From Pseudooceanicola batsensis HTCC2597 (lineage in GTDB: Bacteria > Pseudomonadota > Alphaproteobacteria > Rhodobacterales > Rhodobacteraceae): 64,000 nt of DNA. The stretch covers positions 2,015,739-2,079,738 of the forward strand of contig NZ_CH724131.1 of the NCBI RefSeq assembly GCF_000152725.1, read 5' to 3'. Position numbers and translations under genes: made by a program. The notes under the pieces are model-generated. The model saw only the letters and a list, made by a program, of their open reading frames with translations. It had not been told where the DNA came from and did not search any database. Below are positions 48,265 through 54,897 of the stretch, one piece after another; within the stretch, counting starts at the first letter, position 1, and each line of letters begins with the position of its first letter.

Positions 48265-49944
48265 TCACTCGTTGCTCTTGAGAGCCGCGCCGAGGATGTC
48301 GCCAAGCGATGCGCCGGAGTCGGAGGAACCGTACTGTTCCACGGCTTCCTTTTCTTCCGCGATCTCGCGCGCCTTGATCGAAAGACCGAGGCGGCGGGAC
48401 TTGCTGTCCACATTGGTGACGCGGACATCGACCTTGTCGCCGACCGAGAACCGCTCGGGGCGCTGTTCGGAACGGTCGCGCGACAGATCCGAGCGGCGGA
48501 TGAAGGATTTCATGCCTTCGTATTCCACCTCGATGCCGCCGTCCTCGATCGCGGTCACTTCGACCGTGATGATCGAGCCGCGCTTCACGCCGCCGACGGC
48601 TTCGGCGAACTTGTCCCCGCCAACGTTCTTGATCGAGAGCGAGATGCGCTCTTTCTCGGTGTCGACTTCGGACACAACCGCCTGGACCATGTCGCCCTTG
48701 CGGTAGCTCTGGATGGCATCCTCGCCCCGCTCGTCCCAGCTGAGGTCGGAGAGGTGGACCATGCCGTCGATGTCGCCGTCGAGCCCAACGAACAGACCGA
48801 ACTCGGTGATGTTCTTGACCTCGCCCTCGACAACGGTGCCCTCGGGATGCGTTTCGGCAAACACTTCCCACGGGTTCCGCTGGGTCTGCTTGAGACCGAG
48901 GGACACGCGGCGCTTGGCACCGTCGATCTCCAGCACCATGACCTCGACCTCCTGAGAGGTGGAGACGATCTTGCCGGGATGCACGTTCTTCTTGGTCCAG
49001 GACATCTCGGAGACGTGGACCAGCCCTTCGACGCCCGGCTCGAGTTCGACGAATGCGCCGTAGTCGGTGATGTTGGTCACGCGGCCCTGATGCACCGAGC
49101 TGAGCGGGTACTTGGCGGCCACCAGATCCCACGGATCTTCCTGCAGCTGCTTCATGCCGAGGCTGATGCGGTGCGTTTCCTTGTTGATCTTGATGACCTG
49201 GACCTTGACGGTCTCGCCGATCGACAGGATCTCGGAGGGGTGGTTGACCCGGCGCCAGGCCATGTCGGTGACGTGCAGCAGGCCGTCGACACCGCCGAGA
49301 TCGACGAAGGCGCCGTATTCGGTGATGTTCTTGACCACGCCGTCAACCGCCTGCCCCTCTTCGAGGTTGGCGATGACTTCGGCACGCTGTTCGGCACGGC
49401 TCTCTTCCAGGATGGCGCGGCGCGAGACCACGATATTGCCGCGGCGGCGGTCCATCTTGAGGATCTGGAAGGGCTGCTTCAGTCCCATCAGCGGGCCGGC
49501 GTCGCGCACCGGGCGCACATCGACCTGCGAGCCGGGCAGGAAGGCCACGGCACCGCCGAGATCGACGGTGAAGCCGCCCTTGACCCGGCCGAAGATCGCG
49601 CCCTCGACGCGGGCGTCGTCGGCATAGGCTTTTTCCAGACGGTCCCAGGCTTCCTCGCGGCGGGCCATCTCGCGCGAGACGACGGCTTCGCCCCGGGCGT
49701 TCTCGGCGGCGCGCAGATAGACCTCGACCTCGTCACCGACGGTGATCTCGGGGGTCTCTCCGGGATTTGCGAATTCCTTGAGATCGACGCGGCCTTCCAT
49801 CTTGTAGCCGACGTCGACGATGGCTTGTCCCGCTTCGATCGCGATGACCTTGCCTTTGACGACCGACCCCTCTTGGGGCGTGTCCATTTCGAAGCTTTCG
49901 TTCAGGAGGGCTTCGAATTCCTCCATGGATGTGTTCTGAGCCAT
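48265..49944 (-). CDS. rpsA: 30S ribosomal protein S1
   Basis: 559 residues with six S1 OB-fold repeats. The last four are plain from the recurring VKNITEYGAFVDLGG / VTNITDYGAFVEL / VKNITEFGLFVGLDG segments, with MGLKQ-type linkers. The protein binds mRNA on the 30S subunit and is needed for initiation on leaders lacking strong SDs. ATG 49944 (MAQNTSMEEFEALLNESF) is the family start, though the frame stays open upstream. Its own SD is weak (AAAGG), as often in S1 leaders that are autoregulated. Confidence 0.97.
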   Translation of the reverse strand: MAQNTSMEEFEALLNESFEMDTPQEGSVVKGKVIAIEAGQAIVDVGYKMEGRVDLKEFANPGETPEITVGDEVEVYLRAAENARGEAVVSREMARREEAWDRLEKAYADDARVEGAIFGRVKGGFTVDLGGAVAFLPGSQVDVRPVRDAGPLMGLKQPFQILKMDRRRGNIVVSRRAILEESRAEQRAEVIANLEEGQAVDGVVKNITEYGAFVDLGGVDGLLHVTDMAWRRVNHPSEILSIGETVKVQVIKINKETHRISLGMKQLQEDPWDLVAAKYPLSSVHQGRVTNITDYGAFVELEPGVEGLVHVSEMSWTKKNVHPGKIVSTSQEVEVMVLEIDGAKRRVSLGLKQTQRNPWEVFAETHPEGTVVEGEVKNITEFGLFVGLDGDIDGMVHLSDLSWDERGEDAIQSYRKGDMVQAVVSEVDTEKERISLSIKNVGGDKFAEAVGGVKRGSIITVEVTAIEDGGIEVEYEGMKSFIRRSDLSRDRSEQRPERFSVGDKVDVRVTNVDSKSRRLGLSIKAREIAEEKEAVEQYGSSDSGASLGDILGAALKSNE

Positions 49945-50102
49945 GTGGCTTTCGGTTTCCTTTACTGGGTTTATGCTGGCCGTGCGGTTGTCTCCGCCGG
50001 TCTTGGGGTTGGTCATTCGAGCCGCCGCAAATGAGAAAGGGCCGGTGCTTTTCCGACCCTGCTCGCTCCCTCTTTGCGGCTTTGCGCCTTGTCGACGGAG
50101 GG

Positions 50103-50257: not shown

Positions 50258-50431
50258 TCAGTCCCGCGTCGTTCGGTCGAAATCCTTCGGCAGGGCATAG
50301 TCTTCGGCCGGAATCAGGCAATCCATGCCGAAATCGAAGCTGCGCCACTTCTCCTCTGCCGCCGCCTTGCGGTCGTCGGCGTCCGTGGCACTCTCGTTCC
50401 TGGTGCGGGAAGCATCAAACATGAAGGTCAT
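50258..50431 (-). CDS. small protein (57 aa) with WRxxDFxxDCL core
   Basis: Read directly from the sequence: ATG 50431 to TGA 50258, MTFMFDASRTRNESATDAD..., then a charged helix and the core W-R-S-F-D-F-G-M-D-C-L-I-P-A-E-D-Y, ending FDRTTRD. The SD is excellent (GAGGAGGATATTTT before ATG). A 13-bp dyad at 50442-50478 abuts and partly includes this SD. No signal or membrane helix. It shares its core with the 50-residue protein encoded just upstream (50636-50788). I do not recognise the family. The single Cys in an acidic, aromatic context could be a metal or redox site, but this is not shown. Confidence 0.7.
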   Translation of the reverse strand: MTFMFDASRTRNESATDADDRKAAAEEKWRSFDFGMDCLIPAEDYALPKDFDRTTRD

Positions 50432-50441
50432 AAAATATCCT

Positions 50442-50478
50442 CCTCAATGGCGTTGTATTGAATATCAACGCCTTGAGG
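50442..50478 (-). promoter_or_regulatory. dyad overlapping the SD of the 57-aa gene
   Basis: CCTCAA-t-GGCGTTG (50442-50455), 10-nt AT-rich loop, CAACGCC-TTGAGG (50466-50478): 13 paired bases with one bulged T. On the mRNA the 3' arm runs into GAGGAGG, so folding would mask the ribosome site. It could alternatively be a DNA operator, or a terminator with the following ATATTTT. Confidence 0.6.
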
Positions 50479-50635
50479 GTACACCAGTTCCGGCTTGCCG
50501 CTGAGTAAGGAATTCCGCACACACCGTTTCCAGACAGAGAACCGGGTTTTCTATCAACGTGTTACACGAAATGTGATCGCTAACCGCCAGCGCGGATCGG
50601 GGCCATCCCGGCCCCCCGTTGGACCCCCGTCGGCC
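50479..50635. other. spacer between the two small genes
   Basis: 157 nt between the two small genes. AT-richer than the surroundings near 50530-50580 (GTTTTCTATCAACGTG). A promoter for the 57-aa gene probably lies here. No further gene seen. Confidence 0.35.
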
Positions 50636-50788
50636 TCAGTCCGACTTGGGAACCGGCACCGATCCGGACCTCAGGCACAGACAGTCGACAGCGAAATCAA
50701 GCTGTCGCCAGTCCGGGGCCGGAGGGGTCGGGCCGGGTGATACGGGGCGGTCATTGACGGTGTGGGTGGCTGTGTTCTGATCTGCCAT
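50636..50788 (-). CDS. small protein (50 aa) related to the 57-aa neighbour
   Basis: ATG 50788 to TGA 50636, MADQNTATHTVNDRP, a Pro-rich linker, then the core W27-R-Q-L-D-F-A-V-D-C36-L-C-L and a tail VPVPKSD. The core matches the 57-residue protein at W, R, D, F, D, C and L with identical spacing. The upstream AGGTAAGAA is a moderate SD. It lies 81 nt downstream of the DprE2-like gene on the same strand. Family unrecognised. The existence of the gene is supported mainly by the shared core, so it is less certain than its neighbour. Confidence 0.55.
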   Translation of the reverse strand: MADQNTATHTVNDRPVSPGPTPPAPDWRQLDFAVDCLCLRSGSVPVPKSD

Positions 50789-50869: not shown

Positions 50870-51601
50870 TCAGATCGAGAGTTTCTTGAAGACGCGTTCC
50901 GGAATGTTGCGAATGAGTCCCATGATGATCCGCCAGACGGCTCGCACGTAGATCACATCCCGCCCCTTTACAACGGCCTTCAGAACGGCATGGCCGACTT
51001 CCGCCGGTTCCGCCGTGAGCGCCCCGGGAAGGTCGAGATGTTGCGTCATCCGGGTCGCCACGAAACCGGGTTTCACCGTGACCACGTGGACCCCTTTGCG
51101 CGCCAGCCGGTTGCGCAAACCCGACAGGAAGGCGGTGAACCCCGCCTTGGCGGACCCGTAGATGTAATTCGTCGCCCGCCCCCGGTCTCCGGCGACCGAG
51201 GATATGCCAACAATGGTGCCGGACCCGCGCGCCTCCATCAGGGCGGCGTAGGCATTGAGCAGGATCGCCGGCCCTTCGAAATTCGCACGCAGCACGTCGC
51301 GCGTGGCGGCCGAATCGGCTTCGTCGGCTTTCTGATCGCCCAGCAGACCCACGGCACAGATCACCACGTCGGGCAGGACGTCATCGGCAGCGAAGGCCGC
51401 GTGGTCGTCGATGGCGAGCGCATCGAACTCCCGCAGCGCGACCGTGCCGCCGTACCGTATCTCCAGGTCCCGCGCCGCGTCCCCCAGCGTCCCGACGTCC
51501 CGCGCCGCCAGCGTCAGCGCATGACCCGCCTGCCCGAACGCGTGGGCGCAGGCCATCGCGATGTCCGAGCGCGCCCCAAGGATGGTCACCTTCTGCGTCA
51601 C
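50870..51601 (-). CDS. DprE2-like short-chain dehydrogenase
   Basis: 243 residues, SDR with a shortened cofactor loop G9-A-R-S-D-I-A15 (typical of DprE2), the GISSVAGDRGRATNYIYGSAKAG block with Ser135, Y148 and K152, and a hydrophobic C-terminal segment. DprE2 reduces the 2-keto decaprenylphosphoryl intermediate to the arabinose form. The stop of the DprE1-like gene is upstream and overlaps this start by 4 nt. Function is inferred from family and gene order. Confidence 0.88.
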   Translation of the reverse strand: MTQKVTILGARSDIAMACAHAFGQAGHALTLAARDVGTLGDAARDLEIRYGGTVALREFDALAIDDHAAFAADDVLPDVVICAVGLLGDQKADEADSAATRDVLRANFEGPAILLNAYAALMEARGSGTIVGISSVAGDRGRATNYIYGSAKAGFTAFLSGLRNRLARKGVHVVTVKPGFVATRMTQHLDLPGALTAEPAEVGHAVLKAVVKGRDVIYVRAVWRIIMGLIRNIPERVFKKLSI

Positions 51602-52920
51602 AGTCCGAGCCTTTCCGATTGTGCGGAAGCGAACCTGCCTGCCAGCCCCGCCTCTCTCCGGTGCGCCGCAAAGGCCGCCGCGCGCGGATCGGCCTTCCGC
51701 AGCGCCTCACGCGAGAGACGGCTGTCCTTGGCAAGATAGTGCCGCCCGCCATGGGCGAGCGTGATGTCGTCCAGCCTGTCGAGCAGGGAGAGAACCGCCG
51801 GATCGACCGGGAAGTCCAGCGCCAGGGTGTAGCCCTCCATCGGGAAGGAAAACGCGCTTTCCTGCGGACCCAGTCGCTTCAGAACCGCCAGAAACGAGCC
51901 GCGGCCCGAGGTTGCGATGGTCCGGAGCAATGCCGCCAGCCCCCCGCGGGAAGCCTCCAGAGGCAGGACCACCTGATATTGCGCAAATCCCCGCCGTCCG
52001 TAGATCCGGTTCCAGTCGAGAATAGCATCGAGCGGGTAGAAATAGCTGTCCCAGTCCACCAGCGAAGGGCCCGCCTTGCGGGCGTTCACGCGGAAATAGA
52101 GGCTGTTGAACGCCCGCAGCGTATGACGGTTCAGGGCGATCGCCGGGGCATCGACGGGAACGCGCTTGCGACGGCGGCGGGGCGTGACGAAAGGTGCGGC
52201 CCGCCGCGCCGCCGGCAGGTCCGCCACATCCGCATGGTCGCCAAGCATCACCAGCGAGCGACCCAGATCGGCCCCCTGCCCCAGGCAGTCGAACCACGCC
52301 ACGGCATACCGGCTCTCGGCCGTTTCGAAAATCTCCATTGCGGCGTCGAGATCCGGCGCCACCCGCATGTCCTGGCGGATCCAGCCGCTTTCGACGCGCA
52401 TCAGCCGGATCGCGCAGCGCAGGATGACGCCCGTCAGACCCATCCCGCCCAGCGTCCGGCCGAAAAGCTCGGAGTTTTCCGAGCAAGAAGCCCGCCGGAC
52501 AACGCCATCCGGCCCCAGCACCTCGACCCAATCGACATGCCGCCCGAAGGACCCGTCGCGGCGATGGTTCTTGCCATGCACATCCGCGGCGATCATCCCG
52601 CCAAGCGTGACAAGCTTCGTCCCCGGCGTGACGGCGGGAAACCAGCCCCGGGGCAGGAAGGTCGCGATCACGTCCTCGAGCATGACACCGGCCTCGGCCG
52701 TCAGCACACCGGTCCGACCGTCGAAATCCAGCATGTGCGCCATGCCACGCATGTCCAGCGTGCCGGCGGGCTGCGCCGCGCTGTCGCCATAGCTGCGGCC
52801 GTTGCCCCGCGCGATGACGGGACCTTCGGCAAGAGCCGCCCGCACCTCTGCCGCGCCGCGTGGCCGAAGCAGCCTGCCCTCGACCCGCGGATACCGGCCC
52901 CACCCGGACAGATCGGCCAT
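51598..52920 (-). CDS. DprE1-like FAD-linked oxidase
   Basis: 440 residues. The FAD-binding PCMH-type N-terminal domain has ARGNGRSYGDSA (37-48), TPGTKLVTLGGMIAADVHGKNHRRDG with H115-G-K-N-H119, GSFGRHV and LGGMGLTGVIL, closely following decaprenylphosphoryl-ribose 2'-epimerase subunit 1. The C-terminal domain includes FAQYQVVLP. DprE1 oxidises the ribose 2'-OH. ATG 52920 starts the family-like protein; it overlaps the GtrA stop by one base (TGATG). Confidence 0.9.
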   Translation of the reverse strand: MADLSGWGRYPRVEGRLLRPRGAAEVRAALAEGPVIARGNGRSYGDSAAQPAGTLDMRGMAHMLDFDGRTGVLTAEAGVMLEDVIATFLPRGWFPAVTPGTKLVTLGGMIAADVHGKNHRRDGSFGRHVDWVEVLGPDGVVRRASCSENSELFGRTLGGMGLTGVILRCAIRLMRVESGWIRQDMRVAPDLDAAMEIFETAESRYAVAWFDCLGQGADLGRSLVMLGDHADVADLPAARRAAPFVTPRRRRKRVPVDAPAIALNRHTLRAFNSLYFRVNARKAGPSLVDWDSYFYPLDAILDWNRIYGRRGFAQYQVVLPLEASRGGLAALLRTIATSGRGSFLAVLKRLGPQESAFSFPMEGYTLALDFPVDPAVLSLLDRLDDITLAHGGRHYLAKDSRLSREALRKADPRAAAFAAHRREAGLAGRFASAQSERLGL

Positions 52921-53324
52921 CACGCCGCCACCGGGTCGGCGAAGACGAAGCGCCGGTCCAGCCGGTACTTGACGAGATAGCCGATGCTCAGCCCCAGCAC
53001 GGCCCCGGCCTCGCGCGCGGCTTCGGTCTGCCAGGCGAGCCAGGCGATCGTTTCGGTCCCCCAGAAGATCATCGTCGTCGCACCACCCATCAGCGTGTAG
53101 AGCGTGAACCGCTTGCCATGTGCCGCAAGGCCCCGGCTGCGGTCCCCGAAGATCCACGCCTTGTCGAGAAGATACTTGACCACCAGCCCCGCCCCCGTCC
53201 CCGCGACCAGCGCCTCCGGCAGGCCGAAGGCCATGCCCAGGACGCCGCGCTGCACGGCAAGGTTGACGATCGTGGCGATCACCGCGAAAGCCGCGTACCG
53301 CAGGACGAGGCCGGAGAGGCTCAC
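52920..53324 (-). CDS. GtrA-family membrane protein
   Basis: 134 residues with four hydrophobic helices, GtrA pattern (RYAAFAVIATIVNLAVQR; YLLDKAWIFGD; YLVKYRLDRRFVF). GtrA proteins are proposed flippases for polyprenyl-phosphate-linked sugars. It overlaps the HAD-UbiA gene by 4 nt and the DprE1-like gene by 1 nt. Confidence 0.9.
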   Translation of the reverse strand: MSLSGLVLRYAAFAVIATIVNLAVQRGVLGMAFGLPEALVAGTGAGLVVKYLLDKAWIFGDRSRGLAAHGKRFTLYTLMGGATTMIFWGTETIAWLAWQTEAAREAGAVLGLSIGYLVKYRLDRRFVFADPVAA

Positions 53325-54769
53325 ACCCGCGCCCCCAGCACGACCAGCAGGCAGACCGCGCCGAAGGCCCCCAGGCTGACCGGATCGCGCGCCGCGAAAA
53401 CCACCGGATCATCGTGCATGCGGCCGCGATGCGTGATCAGGACGATGCGGCTGATCCAGAAAAGCAGCACGGCACAGATGCCGAACAGGATCTCGGGGGC
53501 GGTATAGAGCGCCGTGACATCGGGCGAACTGACGTAGAGCGCCATCACGAGGACCGAGACATAGCCGGAGCCGACCGCCATCATGGCAACCAGCGGAAGA
53601 TCCTCGGCCTGATAGCCCCGCCGTGTGTTCAGCGCCCGCCCCGCCGACACGGAATCGACAAGCTCCGCCTGCCGTTTGACCGCGGCGAGCGAGAAGAAGA
53701 AGAACATCGAGAAGGCCATCAGCCAGACCGATAGCGGGATTCCGGTCGCCGCCGCCCCGGCCGCGATGCGCAGCGTATAAAGCCCGGCCAGCGTGCAGAT
53801 ATCCACCACCGGCACCCGCTTCAGGCGCATCGAATAGGCCGAGGTCAGCCCGAGATACACCGCGAGAATGGCCAGAAACGTGGGCCCCAACGACAGGCCG
53901 AGCAGAAGCCCGGCCGCCATCAGCCCCGGCGCCATCCACAGCCCGTTCCGCAGCGCCAGCCGGCCCGAGGCGAAGGGCCGCACGCGCTTGCGCGGATGCG
54001 CCCGGTCCGAGGGAAGATCGAGAAGATCGTTCAGGACATAGACGCTCGACGCGACGAGGCTGAAGGCCAGGAATGCCACCACGGCCTGGCCCAGTGCGCC
54101 CGCATCAGTCCGGTGCGCCGCCAGCAGCGGCAGAAAAATCAGAAGGTTCTTGAGCCACTGATGCGGACGTAGCGCCGCCACCATGGCCCCCGGGGTATCC
54201 TGCGGCTCGGCCTGCAGATGTTCGGCCCCCTGCGGCGCCTGATCCCGGCCGGATCGGTCCAGACCGATCGTCACCGCCCTGTCGGCGGCGGCCCAGATCG
54301 GCGCATCGCTCGCAACGCTGCCGATATAGTCGAACCCGCCCCGTCCGAAACGGTCGATCAGGAAATCCGCCTTGGTCTGCGACCGCAGGTTCCGCCGCCC
54401 GTCCGAACCATGCGCCTCGTCGAACACGCCGAGGTGATCGGCCACCTGATCGGCCACGGCCTGATCCGCCGAGGTCACGAGCGCGGTGCGCCCGCCTCGG
54501 GTGCGCCATTCGCGCAGACGCGCCACGATCTCGGGCCGATAGGGCAGCGTGACCACATCCACCGCGCCGCGCCGGGCCAGTTCGCGCTTGAGCGCCGCCC
54601 GCCCCCGCAGCAGCGCGCGCGCCGCCGCCAGCGGCGCCGACCAGCCCGCTGCGAGCGCGGCCCAGAAGGTTTCGTCAAGGATCTCGGTCCGGATCAGCGT
54701 GCGGTCGAGGTCGCACACCAGAACGACGCGGTGTTCGCCCGCTGGCTGGAGTTGCTCGGCCTGTTCCAT
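53321..54769 (-). CDS. HAD phosphatase-UbiA prenyltransferase fusion
   Basis: 482 residues. The N-terminal HAD hydrolase (about 12-175) has D20-L-D-R-T24, VTS at 98-100 and the metal aspartate in SVASDAPIW (D155). The C-terminal UbiA domain (about 195-482) has N247-D-L-L-D251-L-P-S-D255 and eight to nine helices. Comparison with mycobacteria suggests transfer of 5-phosphoribosyl to decaprenyl phosphate (UbiA) and removal of the 5-phosphate (HAD), two consecutive steps in one protein. The start is ATG 54769 or an in-frame GTG at 54793. Confidence 0.9.
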   Translation of the reverse strand: MEQAEQLQPAGEHRVVLVCDLDRTLIRTEILDETFWAALAAGWSAPLAAARALLRGRAALKRELARRGAVDVVTLPYRPEIVARLREWRTRGGRTALVTSADQAVADQVADHLGVFDEAHGSDGRRNLRSQTKADFLIDRFGRGGFDYIGSVASDAPIWAAADRAVTIGLDRSGRDQAPQGAEHLQAEPQDTPGAMVAALRPHQWLKNLLIFLPLLAAHRTDAGALGQAVVAFLAFSLVASSVYVLNDLLDLPSDRAHPRKRVRPFASGRLALRNGLWMAPGLMAAGLLLGLSLGPTFLAILAVYLGLTSAYSMRLKRVPVVDICTLAGLYTLRIAAGAAATGIPLSVWLMAFSMFFFFSLAAVKRQAELVDSVSAGRALNTRRGYQAEDLPLVAMMAVGSGYVSVLVMALYVSSPDVTALYTAPEILFGICAVLLFWISRIVLITHRGRMHDDPVVFAARDPVSLGAFGAVCLLVVLGARV

Positions 54770-54897
54770 GGCATCTGCCCTTGCTGCCCGCACCGGGTTC
54801 CGGCTCTTTCGGCCACCTTCTCCGGGAACAATGGCAGGATAATGGAACCTGCCTGACGCAACAATGACTTCGCTCGGATTGTCGGAATTTCAGCGGA

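Follow-up and report, generated by a model that had tools for sequence, protein, structure and literature searches.

A probable new family of small paired proteins upstream of rpsA in Pseudooceanicola, with a putative member of the EcfG regulon

Do two very short open reading frames in the gap upstream of rpsA in Pseudooceanicola batsensis HTCC2597 encode proteins, and what might such proteins do? The frames, here called gene A and gene B, lie on the minus strand of a stretch of 64,000 nucleotides from contig NZ_CH724131.1 (positions 2,015,739 to 2,079,738; assembly GCF_000152725.1), which we call the window. A sequence-only reading of the window had noticed that both frames contain an eleven-residue core, WRxxDFxxDCL, and had argued from this likeness that both are translated, with a metal/thiol motif or a binding peptide as possible explanations of the core. 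Here we combine homologue searches, substitution rates, upstream motifs and gene neighbourhoods to ask whether the frames are genes, how they may be expressed, and which role fits them best.

Two small frames and their surroundings

Both frames, of 57 and 50 codons, were found where they had been described (Table 1), and the core is present in each with identical spacing and seven of eleven positions identical. The description of A as rich in D, E and K and of B as rich in Pro also held; the helix that had been read into A did not, as AlphaFold2 predicted no confident helix for A or B. The mean pLDDT values of the two proteins (58.6 and 67.3) are low, and the low-confidence models are compatible with unstructured chains, although they are uninformative on true disorder because the underlying alignments are shallow (7 and 6 rows). 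No N-terminal signal sequence was apparent by eye in either protein.

Table 1. Features of the A/B locus; positions are those of the window unless another locus is named
Feature	Position	Strand	Remarks
rpsA, downstream of A	48265..50016	minus	S1 domains; true start likely near 49944
Gene A	50258..50431	minus	57 aa
Core of gene A	50315..50347	minus	WRSFDFGMDCL
Ribosome-binding site of gene A	50439..50445	minus	GAGGAGG, 7 nt 5' of ATG, read directly
Inverted repeat over CGTT box and A ribosome-binding site	50442..50478	minus	partly kept in some relatives
EcfG-type promoter of A (putative)	50467..50491	minus	GGAAC 50491-50487, 16 nt, CGTT 50470-50467
Second block, GG-ATTC-N4-CT	50504..50516	minus	in 6 of 7 A-type copies
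Gene B	50636..50788	minus	50 aa
Core of gene B	50678..50710	minus	WRQLDFAVDCL
Short-chain dehydrogenase gene, upstream of B	50870..51601	minus	PF00106; 81 nt before B
DoxX_2 gene in a relative	L107:8578-8964	minus	
DoxX_2 gene in a relative	L108:7375-7785	plus	

Sequence searches of Pfam, NCBIfam, PHROGs and the PDB gave no usable match to the A/B proteins. No profile matched above a curated cut-off or at a low E value: of the 13 members, a single one drew a Pfam hit (E 0.19 at best) and none an NCBIfam hit; the best E value was 0.055 in PHROGs, where only A and B of the window served as queries, and 1.5 in the PDB. A search of the open literature, made by organism and topic rather than by sequence, returned no paper about these proteins. 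DUF1127 proteins resemble A and B in being short, often paralogous and alphaproteobacterial, and are regulatory; neither A nor B has a DUF1127 match.

The window also holds, at 50870-54793, genes for a UbiA/HAD fusion, a GtrA protein, an FAD-oxidase and the short-chain dehydrogenase, which we take to resemble the mycobacterial decaprenyl-phosphate arabinose pathway; by context the dehydrogenase is presumably DprE2-like.

Homologues and selection on the shared core

Within one genome, the likeness of A and B is suggestive, not compelling. Among 4000 shuffles of B, 6 gave a core match of seven in eleven, and at least seven in eleven was found in 46 of 2991 random pairs (about 1.5%) of non-overlapping frames drawn from the 142 open reading frames of 45-65 aa in the window. 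As a coincidence within a single genome is weak evidence, the case for A and B rests on homologues.

Initial homologue searches used A and B each as query against 60 genomes, and a 13-row profile was searched against 22 genomes of Pseudooceanicola and close kin. Clear copies of A and/or B were found upstream of rpsA in 8 of these 22 genomes, with strong matches at E values of 1.5e-20 to 1.8e-15 (the same copies also built the profile), and 13 of the 22 had no copy at E <= 0.1. Both genes are present in five genomes (G000, G005, G008, G012 and G019), so the tandem occurrence beside rpsA that had been proposed as a check was recovered. Two genomes, G018 and G020, carry one A-like copy each, with CLIP after the core, and G014 carries one B-like copy, its type assigned by sequence and position. 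In G006 the corresponding position (locus L120, from 485 to 221 nt before rpsA) holds a single, divergent frame, DCRGVDCAMDCLVP, whose match is doubtful (E 0.088). This frame has neither the core W nor the core F and no EcfG-type promoter motif; it may be a decaying or rewired relative, or a product of chance.

A tree built from rpsA, with 21 genomes of the genus and 3 outgroups, split the carriers into two groups, one of G014, G000, G008, G012 and G019 (support 0.65) and one of G005, G018, G020 and the doubtful G006 (support 0.37). The second group has closer kin in the non-carriers G004, G007 and eight more than in the first group (support of the larger cluster 0.95). As the tandem occurs in both groups, the simplest reading would place the origin of A and B before the groups split, with later losses; transfer is the alternative, and the inner supports are low.

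Beyond the genus the pair looks lineage-restricted. A DNA pattern for the core, which can miss copies because it demands a CGN arginine codon and a limited second variable codon, found 16 loci in the contig collection, seven of them in the genus (five in Pseudooceanicola, one in Primorskyibacter flagellatus and one in Oceanicola sp. 22II-s10i); the other nine were rejected by eye as unrelated frames. A family search covered 394 genomes, 392 of them outside the genus, and scored no more than 16 candidates in each, a depth at which distant copies could be missed. Among the matches listed, no clear A/B copy appeared in the 392 genomes, and 14 matches outside the genus had E values of 0.009-0.097; six of these (L075-L078, L081 and L082) were inspected and judged to be chance, including WRRNDFASDCF at L076. 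Of 58 other genera in which rpsA was matched, 29 were inspected around the start of that gene, and no A/B copy was seen in their DNA. Ten IMG/VR stretches match the core pattern, none of them related when tested with A, and plasmids searched with A gave no match.

The alignments locate conservation around the core. W29, R30, D33, F34, D37, C38, L39, I40 and P41 are invariant in the seven A-type copies, and D26, W27, R28, D31, F32, A33, D35, C36, L37 and R40 in the six B-type copies; an A-type run, (F/Y)DFGMDCLIPAEDYALPK, is kept in four species. Orthologues of both genes keep the start and the core. Over the 11 core codons dN was lower than dS in all 36 within-type pairs. The 21 pairs of A-type copies had dN of 0-0.28; dS could be estimated for 12 of them (0.21-2.62) and was saturated for the other 9, and the highest ratio was 0.8 (G000-G018). 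The 15 pairs of B-type copies had dN of 0.06-0.22, and dS estimates for 6 of them (0.41-1.65), the other 9 being saturated. All of these rates are rough, given few codons and saturated dS. Finding homologues by protein likeness favours a conserved core, but it does not favour synonymous change.

Longer stretches, of 22 codons for A and 14 for B, gave dN of 0.05-0.14 for A in the six pairs among G000, G005, G008 and G019, 0.29-0.41 for A in pairs with G012, and 0.10-0.31 for B (ten pairs). Among G000, G014, G018 and G020, dN over 22 codons was 0.33-0.64 and about equal to dS in two of six pairs, so among these four the core alone is well conserved. Over whole proteins, dN was 0.31-0.49 for A in the four species and 0.45-0.62 for B.

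From the copies across species and the excess of dS over dN in the core, we conclude that A and B are real protein genes, translated, under selection and members of one family. Neither a lack of homologues nor a core dN/dS near 1, the two outcomes that the sequence-only reading had named against itself, was found. Its conclusion that both frames are translated survives on a different footing: homologues and core substitution rates support translation, and the coincidence in one genome is an event of about 1.5%. That the frames are untranslated and alike by chance, as the 46 random pairs that match as well would allow, is refuted in practice by homologues in eight genomes and by the 36 core comparisons, and we give it practically no weight.

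A putative EcfG promoter before gene A

The longest invariant run 5' of the A-type genes is GGAAC. All seven A-type copies are preceded by GGAAC-N16-(C/T/G)GTT, ending 35-37 nt 5' of the ATG, with a -10 box of CGTT in five copies, TGTT in G019 and GGTT in G012. Elsewhere in the eight regions (256,016 positions) this pattern has one more match, and it occurs in none of the 250-nt stretches upstream of the six B-type genes, for which no promoter motif was found by eye in the upstream alignment. GGAAC-N16-CGTT is the consensus of EcfG promoters (see also PMC8103513). In Sphingopyxis granuli, where this consensus has been described, TGTT and GGTT are among the frequent -10 variants, and departure from CGTT lowers transcription (PMC7083833).

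The related pattern GGAAC-N16/17-CGTT has 75 matches genome-wide, against 57 for a reversed control, and three in the window, against 0.85 expected, so one site alone means little; the weight of the motif before A lies in its conservation and fixed spacing. Within the genus the pattern is calibrated by nepR, before which it stands at 20 of 20 loci, 100-113 nt 5' of the NepR match. A second conserved block (Table 1), which in the window starts 25 nt 5' of GGAAC, was absent before nepR in six stretches examined. An RNA thermometer, considered because of the inverted repeat at A, was rejected: the 5' arm of the repeat lies inside the promoter and hence outside a transcript from the EcfG promoter, and the repeat is not present in all relatives.

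The regulators that such a promoter calls for are encoded in the same genome, where ecfG and nepR are divergent from phyR. The ecfG frame has sigma regions 2 and 4, NepR scored 55.6 bits (cut-off 25.7), and PhyR_sigma2 scored 90.6 bits in the phyR frame (cut-off 27). NepR was found in 20 of the 22 genus genomes; of the exceptions, G003 is also without A and B, and G020, whose genome is 66% complete, has an A copy with a perfect motif. In Rhodobacter sphaeroides, too, ecfG and a NepR-like gene lie on the strand opposite phyR; the text available to us reports a role of that system in membrane stress and does not mention small proteins like A and B, and its authors noted in 2018 that until then no analysis of PhyR function existed for a member of the Rhodobacterales (PMC5830050).

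This genome thus shares both the promoter consensus and the PhyR-NepR-EcfG locus with the EcfG (sigma-EcfG, ECF15) regulon of alphaproteobacteria, whereas the A/B proteins match no family in the libraries searched. Gene A combines the motif in all seven copies with the presence of the three regulatory genes, and the motif suggests that EcfG uses the site before A; B has no such promoter. On sequence evidence, A is probably a stress protein rather than a chance frame, and A and B probably form a new small lineage-restricted family in which A is a putative EcfG regulon member.

Possible roles of the pair

We favour, tentatively and at somewhat less than even odds, a pair of flexible proteins that present a docking motif to a shared partner, with A made from an EcfG promoter under stress. 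A and B would be paralogous small proteins of a genus-level family, probably cytosolic. Both are short chains, probably flexible, and the conserved linear motif of each, WRxxDFxxDCL(I/V/C), probably serves for docking on a single protein that both bind. Gene A would be expressed from its own EcfG promoter once PhyR has released EcfG from NepR. B would probably be made by read-through or from a housekeeping promoter, as it has no EcfG promoter and lies closely behind the short-chain dehydrogenase gene. Under stress, A may bind the shared partner alongside B or in its place. In a stricter form of this scheme, B would occupy the partner during growth and EcfG-driven A, with its different tail, would replace or supplement B and so redirect the partner. 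We hold this competitor switch to be improbable; two genomes have only an A-type and one only a B-type gene, so competition of the two proteins cannot be a requirement.

The main rival to docking is a redox or metal role, in which the invariant Cys would be oxidised, thiolated or metal-binding, perhaps across a dimer, in peptides of which A is raised under stress. All 13 aligned copies have the core Cys, directly preceded by an invariant Asp, and the stress-type promoter of A would suit a redox function. Against this, the invariant Cys stands alone: a second Cys in B occurs in two of six B-type copies, no other Cys and no His is conserved in A-type or B-type copies, and the conserved pairs of Cys or His ligands, two or more, that mark a zinc-ribbon or CxxC site were not found in A and B. 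The metal/thiol site proposed earlier is weakened by this solitary Cys. As the invariance extends equally to W, R, F and L, a docking surface fits the core better, and we consider a redox or metal role unlikely, if a little less so than the competitor switch. A binding peptide, the other earlier suggestion, is our best guess for the core.

Two further explanations start from the neighbours. A and B might be accessories that bind an enzyme encoded in the UbiA/HAD-GtrA-DprE1-DprE2-like cell-envelope cluster: the cluster domains are encoded in the window, and A/B lie behind genes for a DprE1-like oxidase and a short-chain dehydrogenase in seven of eight carriers. The DprE1-like gene is, however, patchy in the genus (15 of 22 genomes), and only 7 of those 15 clearly carry A or B. 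Moreover, G012 (locus L109) keeps both A and B though the cluster is lost there: ahead of B stands a remnant of the dehydrogenase end with an in-frame stop, behind another frame that is presumably cmk-like, and no DprE1 homologue was found in this genome, which is 77% complete. Alternatively, A might serve rpsA as a leader peptide or regulatory frame, with no protein function of its own, as A/B lie upstream of rpsA and on its strand in all eight carriers. A leader would be a short frame directly in the rpsA leader, but A stands 245-768 nt from rpsA in five genomes, an opposite-strand DoxX_2 gene that is absent from the window's gap intervenes in G005 and G008, and the amino-acid sequence of A is under purifying selection. 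The loss of the cluster in G012 and the DoxX_2 gene between A and rpsA make both explanations unlikely; we judge a tie to the cluster quite improbable, and a leader much more so.

In our judgement, small proteins in the general stress response of alphaproteobacteria seem to have received little study. With docking on a shared partner as the preferred reading, two unrecognised frames become a defined small-protein family, whose genes outlived the neighbouring gene cluster in one relative and which carries a measurable prediction: A, and not B, would be induced through PhyR-NepR-EcfG.
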